Shown: one piece after another, positions 7,457 through 19,047 of the stretch
Numbering within the stretch: position 1 is the stretch's first letter
Layout: each line of letters begins with the position of its first letter
DNA from: a virus
Virus record (IMG/VR): IMGVR_UViG_3300032238_001564
Location: 1 to 34,872 of that record
Direction: 5' to 3' (one strand)
Length of the DNA: 34,872 bases
Made by a program: the position numbers and the translations under genes
Notes under the pieces: model-generated
The model's input: only the letters and a program-made list of their open reading frames with translations
The model's database searches: none
Told to the model about the DNA's origin: nothing

Positions 7457-9909
7457 TAAACTTTACCAACACAATCTATTACTTGAATGACCTTTGTTGG
7501 ATCAGGTTCTTCACCATCTAGATCATCTCCTATTCTATTTACACACATTAACGGAATGATTAATGCATTATAACCTGTTTCACTTTCAATGTAAATATCT
7601 GGAGTTTCTGTAAATCCCTCTCCACTACTAATAACATTAACTTTTACTAATCTACCAAATTCACCAAAAACTGGTTCCAATACTGCACCGTTAGTAGGAC
7701 TTATAGTAATTTTATCCACATTAGGATTGTAATTAATTCCACCATCTTTAACAAATACATCACATATTTTTGTAATTACTGGATATGATCCCTTGGAAGT
7801 AACAGCAGCATCCAATCCAAGATTAGCAATTGCTTGCTCAGAAAGACCTTCTCTGTTCAAGAAATCATAATCTTCATCAGAAATTCTAGGAGTAGTTAAT
7901 GTTCCACATTTATTTTGTACTATATTTTTACCACCAACCAATGTCTCTGTAGAATTACCTTCAGAATCATAAATTTCCGCAGTAGTGAAAAATGGAAGAG
8001 TTACAGTATCTCCAGGGCATACTTGAATTTCTATTCCAGGATTATAGGGTCTATCATATCTACCAGTGCCTCTATAGACAGTTGTTTGATAATTATCTGC
8101 CCAAGTTCTTTGCATACCTCCCTGACTTCCATTATACTTTGGAAGATATCCAGATCCAGGATCAATCATTACAACTTCCAAAATTCCAGTTCCAGGTTTT
8201 CCTCTATTCTGATCTGGATTTGATCCACTATTTGGTGGTTGTGACGGACCAAGTATCACTTTACCAATTGCTCCAGCACCTTGTCCACATGGATCTATAA
8301 TAGAAACTGTGCTTGTTTGGGTATAACCAGATCCTGTAGAAATAATATCAATTCCAAGAATACTTCCAGTTGGAGAAACAATCGCATTTCCCTTTGCACC
8401 AGACCCAGATCCAAAAAAGGATACCGCAGGAGGTCCACATAATTGAGGACCAACATTGCAAGATCCACCTGAGGCATTTGATGGACTTGCATTTGAACCT
8501 AGAGAACTGAAATTAAAATTATCAATATCAACTGCATCAGTTATCTGGCTTCCAATTGCTTTGGCTTGATCAAATAATCCTTGGAGTGATCCAGATAATC
8601 CTCCATTATCTCCTATACCACTCCACATACTCCATTCATTTGCCTCTGGGCATTCTCCATCTTTATCACAAGTCAAAAATCCTAATAATTTTGAAAGTAA
8701 TCCTAATATTTGCCCACCAAAACTAACTGCAGCTCCAAAAGTAGACAATAAGGAATTCAATGGACCCAAAATAGAATTTACTGCGCCATCAATAAATCCA
8801 AGCATTTCTCCTAAAAGAGATCCCATAATGTTTTCAACAGCACAGGATGCAACGTTGACCATTTGATCTAATGCATTATTTAAAGCATTGGTAATCATTC
8901 CAATAAGAGCATCAATAAGCAAATTAAACAAACATCCAAGAAGATCTAATATTTTTTCTTCAGCCTTTTTTAAGGTAGGTCTTTCATTGGGCATTAATAA
9001 GTAATAAACTTTTTTTGTTTGCTCCCGAGTAAATTCGATTATATATTTTCTAATATAATCAATAATCGTTTTCATAAAGCGAGCAATAAATTTAGCCGCT
9101 TTTCCAACTAATTCTTTAATTTTTTCTTGAGCATTACTTACAGCATCATTTACTGCAGATTGAAATTGATCAACTGAACTTTTAACTCGCTCAATCTGTT
9201 TCATCAACTTTTCAATTTCAAGTTGAATACCATCAAGATCATTACCACCACATTTTTGAGTTTTGGCTAAATGCGTTTTTATATTTCCATCTTTAACTTG
9301 CTCTAAATCATTATTGTTGGTCTGATTAATATTTGCACCGTCACCTTCTAAAGGTTTTGCACCATTGGAAGCAGATCCTTTTCCAGTTGCAGGACCCCCA
9401 CCAGGAGCTGTTCCAGAAGGAACTCCACTATTAGACGCTGCAGGTTTTGCATATCCTGGAACTTTTTCACCATTAGCAAATCCACTTATCGGTATAAATC
9501 CTTTTTCTGGTATTTTCTTTTCTAATGAGGTTTGTGCATTATTTCCCAATATTCCCATGATAATTGGTTGTTGAGCCTCAATACCATCCAGAAAAAATCC
9601 AAATACAATATTACCCTGTTTTATATTTGGAGTCTGAGACGCAGACATTTGACCACCGCCCGCAGTGATGGGCAACATTGCTTGCGCCCAAGGCAGGTCC
9701 ATATCTTTTATGTCATCTTTTTTATCAGTGTGATGACCAAAGATTCTTACTTTATACCTAGATCCAAAACCTTTTATCTCGTTTGCATTTATAAACTTTG
9801 TTTTTACAATGTTATCATTCCAAGTCTTATTATCGACGACTTGTCCTATCCACCAATAAAAACCCTCGGATCCTACGAGGTTGGAATTAAATAAAGAGTT
9901 TTCGAGCAT
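7456..9909 (-). CDS. gp5: Baseplate hub/spike protein gp5, without lysozyme domain
   Basis: 817 residues. About 15-125 match the gp5/VgrG OB-fold domain: FYWWIGQVVDN, RYKVRIFGHH, LPWAQAMLPIT, GNIVFGFFLDGIEAQQPIIMGILG. A Gly/Ser linker follows (155-195). Then comes a long helical region (about 225-415; EIEKLMKQIERVKSSVDQFQ and hydrophobic ...LLIDALIGMITNALNN). The rest is beta-rich with GSGY-type repeats (ISTGSGYTQTSTVSI about 523, IDPGSGYLPKYNG about 582, ISSGEGFTETPDIYI near 770). In T4 the centre of gp5 is a lysozyme, and none is visible here. A lytic domain lies instead in the gene at 11435. It forms the central membrane-puncturing hub and is coupled to its neighbours by TGATG and TAATG overlaps. 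Confidence 0.88.
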   Translation of the reverse strand: MLENSLFNSNLVGSEGFYWWIGQVVDNKTWNDNIVKTKFINANEIKGFGSRYKVRIFGHHTDKKDDIKDMDLPWAQAMLPITAGGGQMSASQTPNIKQGNIVFGFFLDGIEAQQPIIMGILGNNAQTSLEKKIPEKGFIPISGFANGEKVPGYAKPAASNSGVPSGTAPGGGPATGKGSASNGAKPLEGDGANINQTNNNDLEQVKDGNIKTHLAKTQKCGGNDLDGIQLEIEKLMKQIERVKSSVDQFQSAVNDAVSNAQEKIKELVGKAAKFIARFMKTIIDYIRKYIIEFTREQTKKVYYLLMPNERPTLKKAEEKILDLLGCLFNLLIDALIGMITNALNNALDQMVNVASCAVENIMGSLLGEMLGFIDGAVNSILGPLNSLLSTFGAAVSFGGQILGLLSKLLGFLTCDKDGECPEANEWSMWSGIGDNGGLSGSLQGLFDQAKAIGSQITDAVDIDNFNFSSLGSNASPSNASGGSCNVGPQLCGPPAVSFFGSGSGAKGNAIVSPTGSILGIDIISTGSGYTQTSTVSIIDPCGQGAGAIGKVILGPSQPPNSGSNPDQNRGKPGTGILEVVMIDPGSGYLPKYNGSQGGMQRTWADNYQTTVYRGTGRYDRPYNPGIEIQVCPGDTVTLPFFTTAEIYDSEGNSTETLVGGKNIVQNKCGTLTTPRISDEDYDFLNREGLSEQAIANLGLDAAVTSKGSYPVITKICDVFVKDGGINYNPNVDKITISPTNGAVLEPVFGEFGRLVKVNVISSGEGFTETPDIYIESETGYNALIIPLMCVNRIGDDLDGEEPDPTKVIQVIDCVGKV

Positions 9910-10121
9910 CAGTCTTCATAAATTTTACATTCCAGAGCATCTGGATTATCGTCACAATAAAGTTCTAAAGAAGATGGATCATGATCATCTTCGGGATGTC
10001 TTTCTATATATCTTTCTAATGCGGCAAGTTCTTCCTCAGTATGCCTACGTGCCTGAGGAGACGTTTGAGGGTCATCTAATATTTTTTTATCTTTTTCAAT
10101 ATGTTGGTGAATGTTTTCCAT
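9909..10121 (-). CDS. cp12: CP12-like protein (70 aa)
   Basis: CP12 is a small disordered redox protein of cyanobacteria and chloroplasts that ties up GAPDH and phosphoribulokinase, shutting the Calvin cycle. Cyanophages are known to carry it. The C-terminus SSLELYCDDNPDALECKIYED (50-70) keeps the CP12 pattern: C56 and C65 nine apart, NPDA(L/A)EC and a final Y-x-D that inserts into GAPDH. The preceding EEELAALERYIERHPED resembles the central CP12 helix. The N-terminal cysteine pair is absent. AGG lies 5 nt before the ATG, and the stop overlaps the gp5 start (TGATG). Odd context: it sits between baseplate genes, not in a carbon-metabolism cassette. A baseplate chaperone with a chance match is the alternative. 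Confidence 0.65.
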   Translation of the reverse strand: MENIHQHIEKDKKILDDPQTSPQARRHTEEELAALERYIERHPEDDHDPSSLELYCDDNPDALECKIYED

Positions 10122-10134
10122 TTTTACCTAAGGT

Positions 10135-11433
10135 TTATTTACCATAAGAATCTCTTACCAAATTTAATTTAGTAAAAGTATTTTTGGGAGTTATTAAATG
10201 GCATATATCTGATATCATATATATACCACCTAAACGCTTACTTGGTATTTGATTAGTTTTTCCAGACAGTTCTGGGAATTCGCATGATACAATATCTCCA
10301 GCATTTAATCGATAATATCCAGCAATAGTAATTTCAACTTTAGAAGCAAAAAGTTGATTATATCTCATCGGTGCTTGAATTAAAGCAGCATCAACATCAA
10401 AAGTTGATTTTTTTGAGTCCTTAAGTTGCTCATCTACAGAATTTCCACTTGGTAAAGCACCTATTGGTAAAATATTAGAAAATTGTCTTGTTGGTTTATC
10501 TTTCAACCAAGTAGGTAAATTAGAATTAAAATCTTTTCCTGCAGTTTTTATACCTTTTTTCTGTTTAGATCCTTCCAAGTCTTTATCTTGATATTTTACA
10601 TCATATGGATTTAACGTGCGAATCTTACTTCCATATGCACCCATCATCAATTTAGATTGTAAATCTAATCCACCACTATCTCCTTCTGTTGCTCCACTTA
10701 CAGAATAATCTAAAATTTTAATATCATATCCAGGAGGAATATCAGTACTATTATTATAGATCATCTTCTTAGGAGTTTTTCCTTCAGTAGAAAGAAGTTT
10801 ATCAATAGATTTAAAATTAATTCCTTTTGTAGTTTCATATAAAAAATACCCAGCTGCGGATCCTTTTGCATTAGGAAGATCTGGAATAGACTTTTTACAC
10901 AACCACATACAAACATAAAAAGGTTTTCTAGAATTTCCTATAAAATTATACTTATTCAATGTAGCATCTACAATTAATTTTTTTTCAGTTTTCAAAACAT
11001 CTTTTAATATCCTTGTAATAGAATCCGAAACTAAACCATCATATCTTTTTACTACACGAGCAACTTCATTTAGAAAAAATTCTTTTGTAACTAATTCCAT
11101 CGCAACAACATTTCTCATATTATCTTGAGTTGTGGATGAAAATTTATTTACATAAAGCTTTAGAGATATCTCTTGGTCATAATTATCACTCATAACCAAT
11201 TCCACTTCTTCACCACCAACAACAGGAAGTCCTTCAATTACTCCCATATTACCATCAATACTGTTTCCAGTATCCACAAAAATTAAATTTATAGCAATAG
11301 ATTCTTGTAAGATGCTTTCATAAAACTCTAACCGAACTAATCCAGTCGAAACATCAATAGATTTACCCCCTTGATTAGACTTAATCAAAAGTTTTTTTAT
11401 ATTACTAGATTCTGATCTTCTACTTTCAGCCAT
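10135..11433 (-). CDS. Baseplate hub protein, gp27-like (432 aa)
   Basis: Starts MAESRRSESSNIKKLLIKSN. Early beta strands (VSTGLVRLEFYESILQESIAINLIFVDTGNSI, about 28-59) fit the tube-like domain of hub proteins. The end ASKVEITIAGYYRLNAGDIV...MISDICHLITPKNTFTKLNLVRDSYGK fits the second hub domain, with the common TKLNLVRDS-type ending. In T4, gp27 forms the trimeric hub that holds gp5. Length (T4: 391) and position one gene before gp5 agree. The middle (about 225-330, GGLDLQSKLMMGAYG...) looks like a phage-specific insertion. Similarity is pattern-level only, so another gp27-fold tail protein is possible. Confidence 0.7.
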   Translation of the reverse strand: MAESRRSESSNIKKLLIKSNQGGKSIDVSTGLVRLEFYESILQESIAINLIFVDTGNSIDGNMGVIEGLPVVGGEEVELVMSDNYDQEISLKLYVNKFSSTTQDNMRNVVAMELVTKEFFLNEVARVVKRYDGLVSDSITRILKDVLKTEKKLIVDATLNKYNFIGNSRKPFYVCMWLCKKSIPDLPNAKGSAAGYFLYETTKGINFKSIDKLLSTEGKTPKKMIYNNSTDIPPGYDIKILDYSVSGATEGDSGGLDLQSKLMMGAYGSKIRTLNPYDVKYQDKDLEGSKQKKGIKTAGKDFNSNLPTWLKDKPTRQFSNILPIGALPSGNSVDEQLKDSKKSTFDVDAALIQAPMRYNQLFASKVEITIAGYYRLNAGDIVSCEFPELSGKTNQIPSKRLGGIYMISDICHLITPKNTFTKLNLVRDSYGK

Positions 11434-11434
11434 T

Positions 11435-14371
11435 TTATCCTAAAGCATATAGTTTGTTGAATGGATCATACGTATTTGAATTACTAGATTCTCCCCTAAA
11501 TGGATCACTTTTTGGTTTTGGTGAGGCATTTTCTTGTTGGCTTACTGGAGATGGACCAGGATCAACAACCATAATTGGTGCCCCATTTTCATAACCAGCA
11601 TAACTATTTAACGTATTAATAAGTGATCCTGCATGTTTTTTAAGTTGAGATTTATTTTCAATCGCGTTAATTGTTGCAAAGAAACTCTTACCTAATAATT
11701 TTGTAGAATCTGCATCAGTAATTGCTTCAGTACCTTCTTCTCCCAACATTGCATATTGTGGTCCATTGGCAAATCCACCTTCTCTATATGCAACGTGAAC
11801 ATGATCACTATGTCCAGGATCTCCTGCTTTCAACAATTCAACAGGTTTTACACCCTTCATTTTATTAAAGTCTGCAATTACTTTAAGAATTGGTCCTTGT
11901 TCATATGCATAGGCACCAATATCAATTGCTCTTCCAGAATAATGATATGAATTTTTGGCATGTGTACCTTTTACTCCACCAAACTCTGGGTGCTCTGCAA
12001 TTGCCTGAAAATCTGGTCCTTGCCTCAATCTTTTCTGTATAAATCTACCAAGTTCTCCAGAAATTTTACTTCCAGCAGAACCATATCCTTTTCCCAAAGA
12101 TATTCCACTACTCCCACCACTCGTAAACGTTCCTTTCTCACCTCTTTGTAGGGCAGCTAATATTTGTGAAGAATATTTCCAACGAGCACCAACATCACCC
12201 CACCCAATGTACTTATAAGATGCTGCTTTTAATTGATCCTCAGTTGCCTTTGGATTCATGAAATCATCAAGAAGTCCGTATTGTTTTAATTCCTCTTTAA
12301 TCCATTTGGTTTGTTCTGCATTACTTGCTTTTTCTAAAGGCTTACCTAAAAACTTTTCGGCGTTTTTAATTCTACCCCTGTTCCAACTAATTAGTCCTTT
12401 ATTAGTCCCAGCACCATCATTCAACACCCAAGGTGTTCTTTGACCCTTCCATCCGGATTCTTGTTGTATATTACCAGATAAAATGGAAGCAGCAAGCATT
12501 GGGAATCCCAATTGCATAAACAATCTTGCTCCACCAACAGAATCATTGGCTGCACCCATTGCTCCACCATCCATACCCGATCCAGGTTCTTCTCCAGGAG
12601 CAGTTGTTTTGGTTTCAGTTGCTGGTTGAAGCATCAAGTTTTTCATAATATTTTTTGTGGATTCATCGACCGCAGAATTTAAAAGATCTTTGGAAGAATA
12701 TTCAACCCACTTACTTATATCACTGTCCCCAGTTAAAGATGAAGAATCAACAACTCCACCTTCAGCAAAAGCTGCACTGATTCCTCCCTTTATATCTCCA
12801 CTATTAATTCCTTTGGTAATCCAAGCATTAATACCCAATCCAATATTTTCATAATCTTTTGCAGAAGGTTTTTGTCCCAATAATACTTTTGAAAAGACTC
12901 CAAATAATGGTCCAAGATAATTTACTCCACTAAATTGCTTAGCAGTACCTTCAACTACACCAAAAGGACTCATGGTTTTTGGATCAGAAGATTCTGGGAA
13001 AAGTTTTTTAAGATTTGTATCTCCACCAATACCTTCACCAGGATTCAATTGAACATCATCAGGCATCCTTGCTTCCAATTTCCTTTTTGTTTTTTTAAGA
13101 GATCTTGTAGCGCCTCCTCCAACAATTTTACCAGATCTGGTAGTTACTTTACCACCTTCAGCCATTTTTTGCTTTGTTCCCACTAATACATCATAAAGAG
13201 ATCCGCCTATAGCATCTCCCAATAATCCACCTAGAGTAGCTCCAATTAATCCACCAACCATTGTTCCCGCAATCGGAACAATGCTACCAACTGCCCCAGC
13301 AGCAACTCCCCCAAGAGATGCCCCAATAGAAGATCCAACAGCTCTAGCTGCCGCTCTTCCAGGATTTTCACCTAACAATAAATTAATTGCAAAATCAATC
13401 AATCCACCAACAATAGGAACTCTACCTAAACCCTTACCCAAAAGTCTAGCAATTCCTTTATTAGCTCCATTTCCAGTAATTTTTGGTTTTGCTCCAAAAG
13501 GATTTCTAAATCCACCCGCTCCACCACCACTCGTAGTTACTCTTGGTCTTTGTCTGAATGGATTTCTTACGGCAGGTCTACCCAGACCTTTTCCACCGCT
13601 TGTAGTGACTCTAGGTCTTCCACCTTGACCGGGTTTAGATTTTGGACCTCCACGACCACCTCTACCACCACCCAGACCTCCAGAAGATACAGCAAGAAGT
13701 CCAGCAACAATTGCTAAATTAATAAATTTATTTAAATATTCCGAAAATCCATCAAATTTTTTAGCTAGATCATCGCCGCCAATATTTTTTAAGAATCCAC
13801 GAGTAGCATCATATGCTTTGTATCCCCAATCAATAAAGGTAACTAAACCATTTAATAATTTACCGCCAACATCAATAATAAAATCTGCAACATATCCAAC
13901 AACAGTTAAAAATTTTGTTAGTAATGGAAGTTGATCTAATATTCTTACTGCAAAAAATCCAAGGACTGTATTTAAAATAAATTTTTTAATTGTATCTAAG
14001 AGTCCAACCTTAGGGAAACTTTTTATTTTTGGAATATTTAAATCCCTTTTTGGTTTCTCTTCAAGTTTTTTCTCTTTACTTTCCCTTCTACCCTTTTCAA
14101 CTGTTCTTCTTTTTCTATCCGATAACTTTTTCTGCTCAGAAAAACTACTCTTAAGTAATTTTTCAATATCAATTACTTTTACCTTAATTTCATATATATC
14201 CTCTTGAATTTTATCAGAATAATCTTGCTTTTTGCTAGATTTAACTACATCAGATACATTAATTTTCTTAGTACCTATCATTTTTGATTGAGGTACAATA
14301 AAAGAGTTCTTTGTTTTCGCAAGAAAACTCTTTGAAGAAGGCAACATTTTTTTAGGATCTAAATTAGCCAT
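11435..14371 (-). CDS. Tape-measure-like tail protein with lysozyme and M15-like peptidase domains
   Basis: 978 residues in four parts. (1) 1-120: basic, coiled-coil-like. (2) 120-225: hydrophobic helices (ILNTVLGFFAVRIL, LLTKFLTVVGYVADFIIDVG), then a Gly/Arg-rich linker (230-300) with PRVTTSGG twice and RNPF twice, then Gly-zipper helices (305-395). (3) About 605-745: a phage tail lysozyme domain with NIQQESGW and probable catalytic E638. (4) About 770-863: a peptidase M15-like domain with THAKNSYHYSGRAIDIG (H810, D817) and DHVHVAY (H857, H859), the usual zinc-binding set. A tape-measure signature, YAMLGEEGTEAITDAD, follows at 873-888. It probably bores through peptidoglycan at DNA entry. 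Tight spacing places it in the tail operon. Confidence 0.87.
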   Translation of the reverse strand: MANLDPKKMLPSSKSFLAKTKNSFIVPQSKMIGTKKINVSDVVKSSKKQDYSDKIQEDIYEIKVKVIDIEKLLKSSFSEQKKLSDRKRRTVEKGRRESKEKKLEEKPKRDLNIPKIKSFPKVGLLDTIKKFILNTVLGFFAVRILDQLPLLTKFLTVVGYVADFIIDVGGKLLNGLVTFIDWGYKAYDATRGFLKNIGGDDLAKKFDGFSEYLNKFINLAIVAGLLAVSSGGLGGGRGGRGGPKSKPGQGGRPRVTTSGGKGLGRPAVRNPFRQRPRVTTSGGGAGGFRNPFGAKPKITGNGANKGIARLLGKGLGRVPIVGGLIDFAINLLLGENPGRAAARAVGSSIGASLGGVAAGAVGSIVPIAGTMVGGLIGATLGGLLGDAIGGSLYDVLVGTKQKMAEGGKVTTRSGKIVGGGATRSLKKTKRKLEARMPDDVQLNPGEGIGGDTNLKKLFPESSDPKTMSPFGVVEGTAKQFSGVNYLGPLFGVFSKVLLGQKPSAKDYENIGLGINAWITKGINSGDIKGGISAAFAEGGVVDSSSLTGDSDISKWVEYSSKDLLNSAVDESTKNIMKNLMLQPATETKTTAPGEEPGSGMDGGAMGAANDSVGGARLFMQLGFPMLAASILSGNIQQESGWKGQRTPWVLNDGAGTNKGLISWNRGRIKNAEKFLGKPLEKASNAEQTKWIKEELKQYGLLDDFMNPKATEDQLKAASYKYIGWGDVGARWKYSSQILAALQRGEKGTFTSGGSSGISLGKGYGSAGSKISGELGRFIQKRLRQGPDFQAIAEHPEFGGVKGTHAKNSYHYSGRAIDIGAYAYEQGPILKVIADFNKMKGVKPVELLKAGDPGHSDHVHVAYREGGFANGPQYAMLGEEGTEAITDADSTKLLGKSFFATINAIENKSQLKKHAGSLINTLNSYAGYENGAPIMVVDPGPSPVSQQENASPKPKSDPFRGESSNSNTYDPFNKLYALG

Positions 14372-14375
14372 TTAC

Positions 14376-17189
14376 TTATCTGATTCCGTGCGTTGCTTTT
14401 GCATTTTTTGTACCACTCGGTCTTTGTGCATTTATTCTTGGAGTGGTTACTTTTGGATTTCCACCACCTTTACCGACAGTATCTGCCTTTGTTCTTGGTT
14501 TTGATATAGTTACAACTGGAGCTGGAGGTCTAGGTGGTGGAGGAGTTAAAGATTTAAGTGGTTGCCTCTTTGATATTCTTGCTTTTGCCGCTTGCTCTTT
14601 TGCTACTCTAGATCCTCCACCAAACCACCCTGCTTTATCCCACCAAGGACGGTTTGCTTCTAATGCTTGCTGGTTTTTACTCTTTGGTTTACCAGACATA
14701 CCCAACAAAGCACCAATCGGATTTTTACTTCCAAGTAAACCCATCATTTCTGAATTGGTTCTGTTTCCACCAAGAACCATATCAACATCACCTTTTCCTT
14801 TAAAGGGATTCAATAAATGAGCTGCTTGAAGTCGTTGCTGTGTAGTTTTTCCTTTTCCAAAAATACCCTCAGTGATAAGTTCACCAGTATTCATGTCGCG
14901 CATTTTACCAGTTCTATCATCTTTCTTTTTGAGCATATCAAAATCATACTTATCTTCTATTCTATATCCACCACCTTCTTTTTTATTTCTTTCATTAGCC
15001 CAAAACTGACCAAGAATATTCTTAGCATTCTTTGCAGATTCTGATAATTTACCCTTTTCATCATTATAGTCAGTGTATTGTACTCGTATTCCGCCCGACT
15101 TCAATTTCTGTAAGAAACTTCTTTGTGTTGCTAAAGCCTCTTTACCTTTAGCAGTTTTTGATGCCCCAGAAGCTTCAAGTTCTTTTATTTTTGCTTCTGT
15201 TTTTGAAATTTCAGAACCAGTTCTTTTCTTTGCCCTTTCAATTGCTTTCTGAAGTTCTCCTTTAGATTCTTTACTTAAATCCAATTCACTTAATGGTCCT
15301 CCCATCCCACCCATCATTTGTTTTGCATAGATTGACCCAGCATCCCTATAAGTAGCACTTTTAAGATTATCAATAAATCCTTTCTCTCCTGGTTTTTTAG
15401 GAGAACTAAATCTATCCTGCATTTTCTTTATTGTATCACCAACACCCGATTTCACCCTGTTTAGTTTATTCATAACAGAAGAACCAATTGAAGGCGTTTT
15501 TATATTAGAAAAACCAGACAATTTTTGAGAGACTACTTTGTCCAAAATCTTCATAGAATTGGTTGCAGCAGAACTAGGTCCAGCTGCAGAAATTCCAGGT
15601 AATCCAGGCATTCCAGGAATTGAAGGCATTCCACCAGAACCTTTTTCTCCCCAAGTGGATGGTTTTCCTAAGTCAGAACCAAATTTATATTGAATAAATT
15701 TATTAACTGCTTCTAGAGGATCTTTTGTTAATTTACTATTTGAAAGATCTCTCAACCCTTTTGCTAGAGTCTGATCAATCCCTTTCGATCTTTCTCGCCT
15801 TATCTTATCAGAAAAACCTTTCTCAGAAGATCCCTCACCTATAAGACCACCGCCAGCTGCATGAGGAACTCCACCAAGAATTTTTGGTCTATTATTTCCA
15901 CCACCGGCAGAGTTTAATGACTCCAAAAATCCCAGTCCGAATTTATCAACTGCCCCACGAGACATGACAAATTCGCCATCACTTAGCATGGCTGGGACTT
16001 TATCTACCCCCTTTTCACCACTAACAAATCCACCAGAAGCAAACCCATAACTCTGAGTTTTCCCGGTTTTTAAATACTCAATTTGCTCATCAATCTCAGC
16101 ACCTTTACCTTGTAATTTCTCAAAAAGGTTTAAGTTAGCTTTTTGCGTTTCTAGTGCTTTTATTTTTTCAGAATTATTTCCTGGAGCATTTTTAGTATTT
16201 CTTTCCTGCTCATCAACAGTTCCAGGGAACATTGCAGGTATAGTTGCACCTGCAGTAAAAAGACCTAATGCTATTGCCGCTACCCTATTTTTGGATATAA
16301 ATTGAATCAGTTTGGGAATTGCAGTCCTTGAAAGTAATACAATCCCACGCAGAACAATCTTTGTAATTGATCGAACAAATTTACCTAAACTTGTACCAAA
16401 AATAATATATGCACCAAGTAAAGCAGGCCACCAATCTTTTACGAATCTTATAATAGATTGTATTTTATCCTTATTAGCAGGATCAGCAAACCAATCTATT
16501 AACTTATATACTACTCTACCCAAAAATGTTTGTACAAAGAAATTAATAATCTTCTCCCAAATAGACTTAACTGGAGCAAGAATCCCATTAATTGCTTTTT
16601 GAATTTTTTCAAAAGGTTTTTTTTCTAACTCGTCTTCCTTTTTACCTCTTCTTCTACTCTCATCAGACTTTCTTTCAGATTCTCTCTCTTTCTGTAGAAA
16701 AGAAAATTGATTTTTTAACAATTCATAAATCGAGAATACAGATTTACGAATTGCTGCAATATTATTTTCTAGTTCATCCCCAAGAACTGGTTTAACTTTA
16801 TCACTTACGTCAGATGTTTTAGATCCAGGTAATAACTTCTGTGGTGATATTACGTTAACAGATGAGGCTATAAAATACTTTTCCTTTGTTATTCTTAAAG
16901 GACCTTTAGTCTTTATAGTATTAACGTTTATTTTTTTCTTATTTACTTTAAATCTTCCAGTTTTGCCCTTTACCTTTTTATATTCATCACGAATCAATTC
17001 ATCTTCTTCAACTGGAATTTTACTTCCAGTCATTCTTGCAGAAACAAGTTTTTCTTTTAGAAGCGTTAGGTAAGTATCATAATCTAAGTCAAAAACATCA
17101 TCCAAACCAAGTAGTCTCAGAATTCTTTCATCAACTTTTTCTGAGACATTTCCTCGGTTCGATTCTGCTTTTGGATTACCAACCACCAT
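14376..17189 (-). CDS. Tape-measure-like tail protein (937 aa)
   Basis: Residues 60-100 and 165-195 are strongly basic. Hydrophobic helices follow at about 205-320 (IWEKIINFFVQTFLGRVVYKLI, WWPALLGAYIIFGTSLG, AAIALGLFTAGATIPAMFPG). The region around 382-420 (FASGGFVSGEKGVDKVPAMLSDGEFVMSRGAVDKFG) is a hallmark of phage tape-measure proteins. The remainder is low-complexity and helical, ending in Pro-rich PPPPRPPAPVV. The gene starts directly downstream of the tail-chaperone pair, the classic place for a tape measure. The paired neighbour shares its N-terminal layout. Which of the two sets tail length (T4: gp29) cannot be told from sequence. The ATG at 17189 overlaps the preceding 58-codon frame by 14 nt. 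Confidence 0.82.
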   Translation of the reverse strand: MVVGNPKAESNRGNVSEKVDERILRLLGLDDVFDLDYDTYLTLLKEKLVSARMTGSKIPVEEDELIRDEYKKVKGKTGRFKVNKKKINVNTIKTKGPLRITKEKYFIASSVNVISPQKLLPGSKTSDVSDKVKPVLGDELENNIAAIRKSVFSIYELLKNQFSFLQKERESERKSDESRRRGKKEDELEKKPFEKIQKAINGILAPVKSIWEKIINFFVQTFLGRVVYKLIDWFADPANKDKIQSIIRFVKDWWPALLGAYIIFGTSLGKFVRSITKIVLRGIVLLSRTAIPKLIQFISKNRVAAIALGLFTAGATIPAMFPGTVDEQERNTKNAPGNNSEKIKALETQKANLNLFEKLQGKGAEIDEQIEYLKTGKTQSYGFASGGFVSGEKGVDKVPAMLSDGEFVMSRGAVDKFGLGFLESLNSAGGGNNRPKILGGVPHAAGGGLIGEGSSEKGFSDKIRRERSKGIDQTLAKGLRDLSNSKLTKDPLEAVNKFIQYKFGSDLGKPSTWGEKGSGGMPSIPGMPGLPGISAAGPSSAATNSMKILDKVVSQKLSGFSNIKTPSIGSSVMNKLNRVKSGVGDTIKKMQDRFSSPKKPGEKGFIDNLKSATYRDAGSIYAKQMMGGMGGPLSELDLSKESKGELQKAIERAKKRTGSEISKTEAKIKELEASGASKTAKGKEALATQRSFLQKLKSGGIRVQYTDYNDEKGKLSESAKNAKNILGQFWANERNKKEGGGYRIEDKYDFDMLKKKDDRTGKMRDMNTGELITEGIFGKGKTTQQRLQAAHLLNPFKGKGDVDMVLGGNRTNSEMMGLLGSKNPIGALLGMSGKPKSKNQQALEANRPWWDKAGWFGGGSRVAKEQAAKARISKRQPLKSLTPPPPRPPAPVVTISKPRTKADTVGKGGGNPKVTTPRINAQRPSGTKNAKATHGIR

Positions 17190-17352
17190 TTTGCTGTGCC
17201 ATTTGTTTTGAGTTTTCTTCCTCTAGATGATTTTTCAATAAAGAAACATAAATGTCCCTTTCCCAAGGCATTAAATTTTCAATCTCTGTTAATGAATATT
17301 TATGATACTGTACCAGAGAAAAATTTAATTTATAATAATTTTCTAAGTCCAT
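17176..17352 (-). CDS. C-terminal extension of the tail-assembly chaperone, probably made by -1 frameshift
   Basis: A 58-codon frame, MDLENYYKLNFSLVQYHKYS... with LTEIENLMPWERDIYVSLLK (21-40) and a basic/acidic helical end. The (T)EIE.LMPWER.IY..LL pattern is frequent in short proteins just before myovirus tape-measure genes. The frame lies in -1 relative to the upstream chaperone and is open from the slippery site through its ATG. It can therefore be fused as chaperone residues 1-238, RIALVH, then these 58, about 302 in total. Independent initiation is possible but poorly supported, because the ATG lies in a predicted hairpin loop without a clear ribosome-binding site. By analogy with lambda G/GT it would recruit the tape measure. 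Confidence 0.8.
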   Translation of the reverse strand: MDLENYYKLNFSLVQYHKYSLTEIENLMPWERDIYVSLLKNHLEEENSKQMAQQNGGW

Positions 17353-17376
17353 GTGGACTAGGGCTATGCGAAAAAA
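17343..17376 (-). promoter_or_regulatory. Programmed -1 ribosomal frameshift signal
   Basis: On the minus strand the chaperone gene ends AGT TTT TTC GCA TAG. This contains the slippery heptamer T-TTT-TTC (17376-17370) in the correct frame. Eight bases downstream a hairpin can form: CTAGTCC, loop ACAT, GGACTTAG (17361-17343), with 7 pairs and one bulged T. After a -1 slip the reading frame avoids the TAG and continues without stop into the 58-codon frame. Slippery site, spacer, structure and open frame all fit the lambda-type G/GT mechanism; the frameshift itself is inferred. Confidence 0.75.
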
Positions 17377-18083
17377 CTTGAAAGACCCTCCAGGACAACC
17401 TCGCTCTCAACTTCTGTGACTGGATTTTTAACATTTACTTTATGAGTTAATCTAGGCATAGTCTCAAAGAATTTCTCAATCTTTTTAAACTGAGAAGAAT
17501 TCATTTGATCTAAGAAATCTGAAAATTCTTTTTTAGTTGCATCAGATGAAGACCAAACTTCTTCTTCAGTATATACCTTATCAATACAAGCAGCAATTAA
17601 ATCAAATGACTGCTCTACATTTGTGTTTCCACTCAAATCAAAATTGTTTTTAATAAACTGATCGAGTGAAGGATATCTCATTTCCATGGCGATTTTATCA
17701 TCAACTTGAATCACCTTAGAATGATCTTCATTCTTTTGCACTTTAATATCATCAATACTAATCTTCACAAGAACTGAAGTATCTTCATCATCCGGACAAA
17801 TAATATTTACTTCTACTTCTTCTCCAACAGATTTTCCTCTGATGTTTAAAAAGAGATATTCAATATCAAATGTTGGGAGATTTTCTACTTTAATATTTTT
17901 TGTGATGATACAATTTTTAATTACGGTCTTAATCGCTGTTGTAATTTGTTTTGTATCTTCACTCTCTAATGCTAAAACAAGAAGTTTTTCTTCTCGTACT
18001 AAGAAAGGTCTATATTGAATTGACTGTCCAGTTGATGGTAATTCCAACTCATACGTTGGTGTAGAAATCTTTGGTAAAGGCAT
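17364..18083 (-). CDS. Tail/baseplate assembly chaperone (T4 gp26-like family)
   Basis: 239 residues starting MPLPKISTPTYELELPSTGQ. The region YRPFLVREEKLLVLALESED (24-43) followed by NLPTFDIEYLFLNIRGKSVGE and the NIICPDDED strand is characteristic of the T4 baseplate-chaperone family (Pfam T4_baseplate, which includes gp26). The C-terminal half is helical. In long-tailed phages this gene precedes the tape measure and makes two products by frameshifting; the last codons here form a slippery sequence. AGGA lies 6-7 nt before the ATG, and a late box lies 23 nt upstream. The short product would chaperone the tape measure and hub, without entering the virion. Confidence 0.85.
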   Translation of the reverse strand: MPLPKISTPTYELELPSTGQSIQYRPFLVREEKLLVLALESEDTKQITTAIKTVIKNCIITKNIKVENLPTFDIEYLFLNIRGKSVGEEVEVNIICPDDEDTSVLVKISIDDIKVQKNEDHSKVIQVDDKIAMEMRYPSLDQFIKNNFDLSGNTNVEQSFDLIAACIDKVYTEEEVWSSSDATKKEFSDFLDQMNSSQFKKIEKFFETMPRLTHKVNVKNPVTEVESEVVLEGLSSFFA

Positions 18084-18123: not shown

Positions 18124-19047
18124 TTAAAACCTAACATTAGGATTATATGTTTGAGCTTTTTGCAATAATTGAGCTCTTTGAGGTGATCCTGCAGGATATG
18201 TTGCGTTTGCGTTTGCAAGAATTTGATTTTGACTTTCGATATTAACAGGAGCACGATTTTGATTTTGAATCATCTTCTGATTAGAAAGTGCCCAGATAGC
18301 AAGGTTATCATCAACTGGTGGATTGTTGCTTGTGGGTACATCCGGATTTCCAGGTGAAGGTGCGGAAGGTGGAGATTGTTGAGGTTGAATAGACGTTGCC
18401 TTTACTTTATCTACAAAATATCTAGAATATGAAAAAGATACTGTACATTTTAATAAACTTGCTGATTCATATGTAACAGGCATTGATGCAATGCTTGTTG
18501 GGAAGGCATTGATAAAATGATAAGCTAATTTTGTGTTGTTTATTCCATATGATGCGCCATAATCTTTTTCAAATTTTGTAATTACGATAGTTGTTTGAGA
18601 TAGAGTGGGCCAGTTTACCCTATAAGTATAATTTTTATTTCTAATATCATTACCACCATCACCACCAGAACTCACTTGCTCATTCACAATATATCTCATC
18701 CAAGCCTCAAAATATCTGATCTGATAGTAGTTTCTATCGACATAGAAAGTAAAATCTGCTTTATCATCATATAATCTCCTATACCCATGCCTTTCAGTAA
18801 CACCAGAAAAATCATTAGTAATTTCATGAGTTGCGATGGAAGATCCGGGAAGACTTGCTTCAGAACAAGACAAGATTAGTTTTTCTGGATCATCGATTAT
18901 TCCATTTGCGGGGAGAATACCCTTAACTCCCTCTGGAGTTAAGGTATAAACTTCAAAATTATTAGTTAAAGCTGGTTGAAGTAACGCGGACTTGATGTCC
19001 GACATTCTTCTTGGTCTTACTGCTGGTGTCTGAATAGACTGAGCCAT
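18124..19047 (-). CDS. gp54: Baseplate tail-tube initiator, gp54-like (307 aa)
   Basis: Residues about 25-225 have the tail-tube fold pattern: NNFEVYTLTPEG, KLILSCSEASLPGSSIATHEI, YRRLYDDKADFTFYVDRNYYQIRYFEAWMRYIVNE, TIVITKFEKDYG, LAYHFINAFPTSIASMPVTYES, LLKCTVSFSYSRYFVD. The ...LPG.S...F.VD.....FE.WM... order matches gp19, gp48 and gp54. Length (T4 gp54 320) and the neighbouring gp48 favour gp54, which tops the baseplate and starts tube polymerisation. The C-terminal 80 residues are Pro/Asn/Gln-rich and probably disordered (PQQSPPSAPSPGNPDVP). It diverges from gp4 across a 65-nt promoter region. No strong ribosome-binding site. Confidence 0.8.
   Translation of the reverse strand: MAQSIQTPAVRPRRMSDIKSALLQPALTNNFEVYTLTPEGVKGILPANGIIDDPEKLILSCSEASLPGSSIATHEITNDFSGVTERHGYRRLYDDKADFTFYVDRNYYQIRYFEAWMRYIVNEQVSSGGDGGNDIRNKNYTYRVNWPTLSQTTIVITKFEKDYGASYGINNTKLAYHFINAFPTSIASMPVTYESASLLKCTVSFSYSRYFVDKVKATSIQPQQSPPSAPSPGNPDVPTSNNPPVDDNLAIWALSNQKMIQNQNRAPVNIESQNQILANANATYPAGSPQRAQLLQKAQTYNPNVRF

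Follow-up and report, generated by a model that had tools for sequence, protein, structure and literature searches.

The question raised by this locus is whether the putative tail assembly chaperone gene gp26 yields only the protein that ends at its stop codon or, through slippage of the ribosome, also a longer one that runs on into the short open frame behind it. The gene lies in the window, i.e., the whole 34,872-nucleotide stretch that was analyzed (IMG/VR record IMGVR_UViG_3300032238_001564), which looks like a cyanophage sequence, judging by a CP12-domain gene and by its nearest named relatives, which are Synechococcus and Prochlorococcus phages. CP12 genes belong to the auxiliary metabolic genes known from cyanophages; the one found here (positions 9909 to 10121, minus strand; PF02672, 5.1e-12) is located between the gp5-like and tail protein genes, inside the tail/baseplate cluster. 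On comparative grounds, gp26 of this Kyanoviridae-type cyanophage very probably encodes a tail chaperone that exists as two forms, the longer one arising through -1 programmed ribosomal frameshifting. The features of the locus are collected in Table 1.

Table 1. Features at and around the end of gp26 in the window
Feature	Positions	Strand	Basis or remark
gp26, tail assembly chaperone, short form (TAC-N)	17364..18083	-	Pfam PF12322 T4_baseplate, 3.3e-74; PHROG 150, 1.4e-79
Slippery heptamer T TTT TTC	17370..17376	-	Sequence; one codon ahead of the gp26 stop
-1 frame extension, "gp51" C-terminal domain; predicted to make the long form (TAC-NC)	17176..17370	-	64 codons plus stop; PHROG 634
Shine-Dalgarno-like GGAGGG, 9 nt before the heptamer	17386..17391	-	Likely upstream stimulator; conserved motif and anti-SD pairing
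Hairpin, 7 pairs and one bulged T, 8 nt past the heptamer	17343..17361	-	Likely downstream stimulator
Tail tube protein, upstream neighbor of gp26	18124..19047	-	PHROG 45, 1.3e-35; PF23849, 1.2e-13
Large 937-aa protein in tape-measure position, downstream neighbor	14376..17189	-	PHROG 35029 (unknown function), 6.9e-73

The 239-residue product of gp26, read in frame 0, scored 249.7 bits against the PF12322 profile (cutoff, 24.5), which places it in this curated family, and gp26 is the single PF12322 copy in the 34.9-kb record. On the minus strand, the junction reads CTG GAG GGT CTT TCA AGT TTT TTC GCA TAG CCC TAG TCC ACA TGG ACT. The preliminary description had placed a T-TTT-TTC at the end of the chaperone gene and proposed a -1 readthrough from RIALVH into MDL, open to position 17176 and giving about 302 residues. 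The heptamer is exactly there; it is in frame and fits the X XXY YYZ pattern, so that both tRNAs can re-pair, and the codons that follow a -1 slip are CGC ATA GCC CTA GTC CAC ATG GAC. From position 17370, the -1 frame encodes RIALVHMDLENYYKLNF...QQNGGW and stops at 17178 to 17176, in agreement with a predicted frameshift product of 238 plus 64 residues (302 in all). The ORF of 58 residues at positions 17176 to 17352 is the downstream part of this extension. PHROG 634, "baseplate hub assembly catalyst" (gp51), matched the -1 peptide from residue 2 onward (E value, 1.4e-29), so that the residues ahead of the ATG are included in the match. The -1 peptide also matched the C-terminal end of the PHROG 150 profile (237 to 280 of 282; 1.1e-5), suggesting that some PHROG 150 members are fused in frame. 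Among the minus-strand window genes examined, T-TTT-TTN occurs in frame at only two sites in 6,815 codons, which argues against chance as the origin of the junction heptamer. The other site, T TTT TTA in a tail protein gene (10135 to 11433, minus strand), showed no sign of function.

The gp26 gene is located directly downstream of the tail tube gene. The gene for the 937-residue protein comes next, sharing 14 nt with the end of the -1 frame, and its product gave weak matches to tape measure families but no clear one; going by gene place alone, it would be the tape measure. A 978-residue protein (11435 to 14371, minus strand) is strongly similar to a PHROG of unknown function and gave a subthreshold match to a phage tail lysozyme (PF18013; residues 618 to 723).

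In the AlphaFold2 model of gp26 (pLDDT, 85.8), residues 1 to 86 aligned with the HK97 tail assembly chaperone (2ob9; VIA-align Z score, 7.9; 84 residues aligned; 3.8 Å). The other top matches of this N-terminal domain were 3fgx (Z score, 8.1) and YqbN (3klu; Z score, 7.2), and the next row scored 4.9. The N-terminal part of gp26 is thus predicted to have a chaperone fold resembling that of the HK97 tail chaperone, at Z scores that are middling. Foldseek alone found no significant match to the PDB for the gp26 and gp51 models, a sequence search of the PDB found no match, and NCBIfam had none for gp26 or gp51.

We propose that most ribosomes would read TTT TTC GCA TAG and release the 239-residue short form. 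A minority, paused by the GGAGGG element upstream and the hairpin downstream, would slip back by one base, with the P-site and A-site tRNA-Phe both re-pairing on TTT TTT. Such ribosomes would bypass the stop codon and append the 64-residue "gp51" domain, giving the long form. If lambda G/GT is a guide, binding of the tape measure would fall to the N-terminal part that both forms share, and recruitment of tail tube or hub subunits to the scarcer C-terminal part.

The heptamer and the -1 frame were followed through 276 PF12322 frames, comprising all fetched loci and the window. A run with an adjacent -1 domain was present in 254 loci, with T-TTT-TTC in 235, TTT as the last codon in 18, and TTA in 1, and mostly it ends one codon ahead of the stop. 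The T6C run was found at the junction in 80 close IMG/VR relatives, with the gp51 domain in the -1 frame wherever the contig reaches it; one relative (L035) has a stop after residue 138 inside an otherwise intact gp26, which is probably an assembly or sequencing error. The heptamer ranges over the Kyanoviridae, the KVP40-type and Aeromonas 65-type Straboviridae, and phages of Sinorhizobium, Rhizobium, and Stenotrophomonas, and it is retained in gp26 proteins with as little as 23 to 30% identity to that of the window. Named carriers include S-SM2, S-RSM4, S-PRM1, S-SSM7, P-SSM2, S-RIM8, KVP40, Aeromonas 65, Cronobacter LPCS28, Stenotrophomonas YB07, Sinorhizobium phiM12, and Rhizobium I1_18. 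In Rhizobium phage RHph_I1_18 (locus L088, ~2200 to 2235), two heptamers overlap (T TTT TTA and T TTA AAC), and the frame 0 stop comes several codons late. Of the 105 Phe-Phe pairs at other places in these gp26 genes, just 3 use NNT-TTT-TTY; codon choice at the slip site is nonrandom. Dereplication at 80% identity left 94 loci, chosen for having the run. Since these loci were picked for the run and their lineages are not independent, a product of chance probabilities (~10^-40) was set aside as evidence. The diversity of alignment A1 was too great for scanning with a degenerate pattern, and scans started with gp26 of Aeromonas 65, KVP40, and VAP7 returned only five, two, and one loci, respectively.

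A homopolymer run could also act at the level of transcription, with RNA polymerase inserting an extra U at the T6 run and a fraction of the mRNAs then encoding the fusion; the run exists, and the protein product would be almost identical. However, T6 is short for slippage by bacterial RNA polymerase, and the C at position 7 in 235 of the 254 loci indicates that longer runs are not favored. Ribosomes are instead indicated by the constant codon phase of the run and by its spacing from the Shine-Dalgarno (SD)-like element and the hairpin, and we regard transcriptional slippage as extremely unlikely.

Two separate proteins are another way to read the junction: gp26 would end at TAG, and a 58-residue "gp51" would start by termination-reinitiation at the ATG at 17352. 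This ATG lies only 11 nt past the stop, many cyanophage GenBank records carry a separately annotated gp51, and the two frames meet in TAATG overlaps in KVP40 and VAP7. However, at 33 of the 94 dereplicated loci the opening 15 codons of the -1 frame contain neither ATG nor GTG nor TTG, making independent initiation there implausible. Moreover, conservation of the pattern R-[ILV]-[AGS]-[LM]-x-H-x-x-L begins with the very first codon read after the slip, and the part up to H lies ahead of the ATG of the window; together with the loci that lack a start, this leaves an independently started gp51 failing as an explanation. The "gp51" proteins of S-RSM4 and S-RIM8, annotated from an internal ATG, lose conserved residues, and the SD-like element is ~35 nt from the ATG, the constant distance being the one to the heptamer. 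Independent synthesis of gp51 thus appears very unlikely as the sole route. The preliminary description, which judged a -1 frameshift joining the chaperone to the downstream frame likely and pointed to related genomes as the place to look for the same heptamer, spacer, and open frame, is borne out by these comparisons, which show conservation of the heptamer, the spacing, and the open -1 frame, and the absence of a downstream start codon from many relatives.

The elements that flank the heptamer are likely to act as stimulators, as suggested by their occurrence in the sequences and by covariation. An SD-like GAGGG, GGAGG, GAAGG, or AAGGG was found 8 to 10 nt upstream of the heptamer in 82 of the 94 dereplicated loci. 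Pairing with the anti-SD sequence was stronger than in synonymous shuffles (z score, -0.94 ± 0.15, against -0.2 to +0.4 at nine other offsets). Downstream, folding at the junction was likewise stronger than in amino-acid-preserving shuffles (mean z score, -1.64 ± 0.18, compared with -0.3 to -0.7 at control places). The hairpin of the window itself (arms at 17361 to 17355 and 17350 to 17343) had a modest folding z score of -2.47. Its seven pairs, bulged T, and 8-nt spacer are as first described; the placing of the ATG (17352 to 17350) in the loop holds only for A and T, the G being part of the stem. Among 70 related sequences of the window's clade, 31 cells were changed on both sides of the stem, compared with 12.1 after shuffling, and none of 500 shuffles reached as high a value; kinship among the sequences inflates such covariation counts. 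The pairing and covariation score falls when the partners are slid. Changes on both sides were seen at five of the seven pairs of this short stem. The P-SSM2/S-SSM7 clade has an 11-pair stem that starts 5 nt past the heptamer, with one pair seen as U-A, G-C, and A-U. Consensus structures from RNAalifold were only weak, and pair counts on a fixed structure were more informative. The stem of the window is not preserved in every clade, and the idea of a single universal hairpin was rejected, the structures being clade specific.

An ATG soon after the slip site, at codon 7 in the window and at codon 4 in others, is present in many relatives, and some free C-terminal domain could also be initiated there. 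Both processes might then operate, frameshifting giving the fusion and reinitiation at the hairpin ATG adding a free C-terminal domain in the clades that keep the ATG. An ATG at -1 codon 4 or 7 is indeed common in the window's clade and in the P-SSM2 clade. However, this ATG lies within the stem or loop, and its bases are explicable by pairing and by a residue that tolerates M and L; we consider such a combination unlikely.

Loss of the T run with both frames kept, which the preliminary description had named as evidence against frameshifting, was encountered solely in loci of the Ackermannviridae type, which have a shorter T run. Among the loci with a recognizable -1 domain, these are the only seven without the run. 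Chaperone and -1 domain are both retained in K452, VAP7, D504, Kuja, UPM 2146, Ds3CZ, and SeSz-1, which are Ackermannviridae and Vibrio phages related to them, and in all seven gp26 ends [ACG]TT TT[CT] replaces the heptamer, with TAA one codon later. In UPM 2146 and SeSz-1 (Kuttervirus/Taipeivirus records), the -1 domain has no ATG, GTG, or TTG at its start and is unannotated. Either a different slip, involving the A site only, or a different mechanism may operate at this type of junction.

The preliminary description contrasted the locus with T4, which uses separate genes for gp26 and gp51. Two genes are indeed present, but their relation is closer than this implies, since T4 gp51 is itself gp26-like and carries the -1 domain in one frame. 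Both T4 proteins, listed as hub assembly chaperones in PMC3004832, match PF12322 over its whole length (8.8e-64 and 3.9e-52 for gp26 and gp51, respectively), and gp51 continues past it into the PHROG 634 domain. A profile of predicted frameshift products aligned without gaps through the junction in T4 gp51 (FFrlalsheslenyyktnF versus VFKLLVNPDEIFTFYQINH), and this presence of both parts in one polypeptide also speaks against two separate proteins in the window. Seven frameshift genomes examined have one PF12322 copy each, whereas T4 has two; the heptamer is absent from T4, and the Tevenvirinae loci show the same two-gene state without it. Gene duplication thus seems to give T4 the same pair of products, probably having replaced frameshifting there. 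In Enterobacter phage EC-F2 (MN508624, Pseudotevenvirus; locus L280, 1801 to 3094), a long gp51-type gene and a short gp26-type gene, the latter annotated only as hypothetical, lie in tandem on the same strand and overlap by a few bases, the arrangement that a tandem duplication would leave.

In a 48-row tree, the frameshift and Ackermannviridae-type rows were all on one side of a supported branch (98/89), and the long forms made up one group (100/98). The tree is consistent with a single duplication, although the positions of EC-F2 gp26 and of the root are uncertain. We tentatively suggest, as a possibility somewhat short of even, that frameshifting is ancestral in the whole PF12322 family, that the T4 type exchanged it once for duplication, and that the Ackermannviridae kept a degenerate [ACG]TT-TT[CT] at which the A-site tRNA-Phe alone would re-pair, allowing a -1 shift in the absence of a canonical heptamer.

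Taken together, the conserved site, frame, and flanking elements, the colinear in-frame homologue in T4, and the modeled chaperone-like fold strongly support frameshifting in gp26; slippage in the cell, its rate, its role in assembly, and a stimulatory action of the SD-like motif and the hairpin are inferred. A very abundant group of marine viruses thus probably needs ribosomal slippage for tail building. Frameshifting would also account for the many cyanophage records in which "gp51" is absent, cut short, or labeled hypothetical. In GenBank, the gp51 domain is cut at an internal ATG in S-RSM4, S-RIM8, and C48C1 and is unannotated in S-PRM1, MbCM1, and LPCS28, probably because the frameshift went unrecognized. 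Slip site, degenerate site, and duplicated genes form a natural series in which it could be tested whether selection maintains the product ratio.

Several known systems resemble the gp26 locus. The cassette of Escherichia coli dnaX consists of an SD sequence ~10 nt upstream, the slippery heptamer A AAA AAG, and a downstream hairpin. The window has the same three elements in the same order, but dnaX is a cellular gene with an A AAA AAG heptamer and encodes an unrelated protein. The slip site of lambda G/GT is G GGA AAG, whereas that of the window is T TTT TTC, flanked by the SD-like motif and the hairpin. The likeness is one of arrangement: in lambda, an occasional -1 slip shortly before the gene ends adds a C-terminal extension to the short chaperone, and the partners are the tape measure and the tail tube (PMC5009743). 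According to the same review, G-T frameshifting is a conserved trait of long-tailed phages "except T4." Pseudomonas phage Adele (Vandenendeviridae; PMC12846349) has a conserved -1 open frame with a poly-T sequence (GTTTTT) before the tape measure gene; it belongs to a different phage family, and the likeness is one of locus layout.

The closest counterparts are the T4-like chaperone genes themselves. The preliminary description knew of no established frameshifting in T4-like cyanophages; for T4-like chaperone genes generally, this does not stand, since a passage of PMC12846349 (2025) credits Vladimirov, Gautam, and Davidson (Virology 566:9, 2022) with poly-T frameshifting in them, and a passage of PMC10885494 credits the same work with the pair of a short and a fused gene in some T4-like phages. 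As described in these citing passages, that system shares with the window a T4-like chaperone with a poly-T signal in the short-form gene, short and fused long genes being found elsewhere, and frameshifting in the window is thus not new in kind. A literature search on gp26, gp51, and frameshifting found no paper on this site apart from the work cited in PMC12846349. As far as could be checked, the evidence for the SD-like element and hairpins, the genomes without a start codon, and the degenerate Ackermannviridae site are added here. Short and long forms sharing their N-terminal part are predicted from the sequence in the window and are encoded by two genes in T4 and the Tevenvirinae; unlike the window, T4 lacks the heptamer, yet both of its proteins belong to PF12322, and its gp51 ends in the same C-terminal domain, colinear with the predicted frameshift product of gp26.
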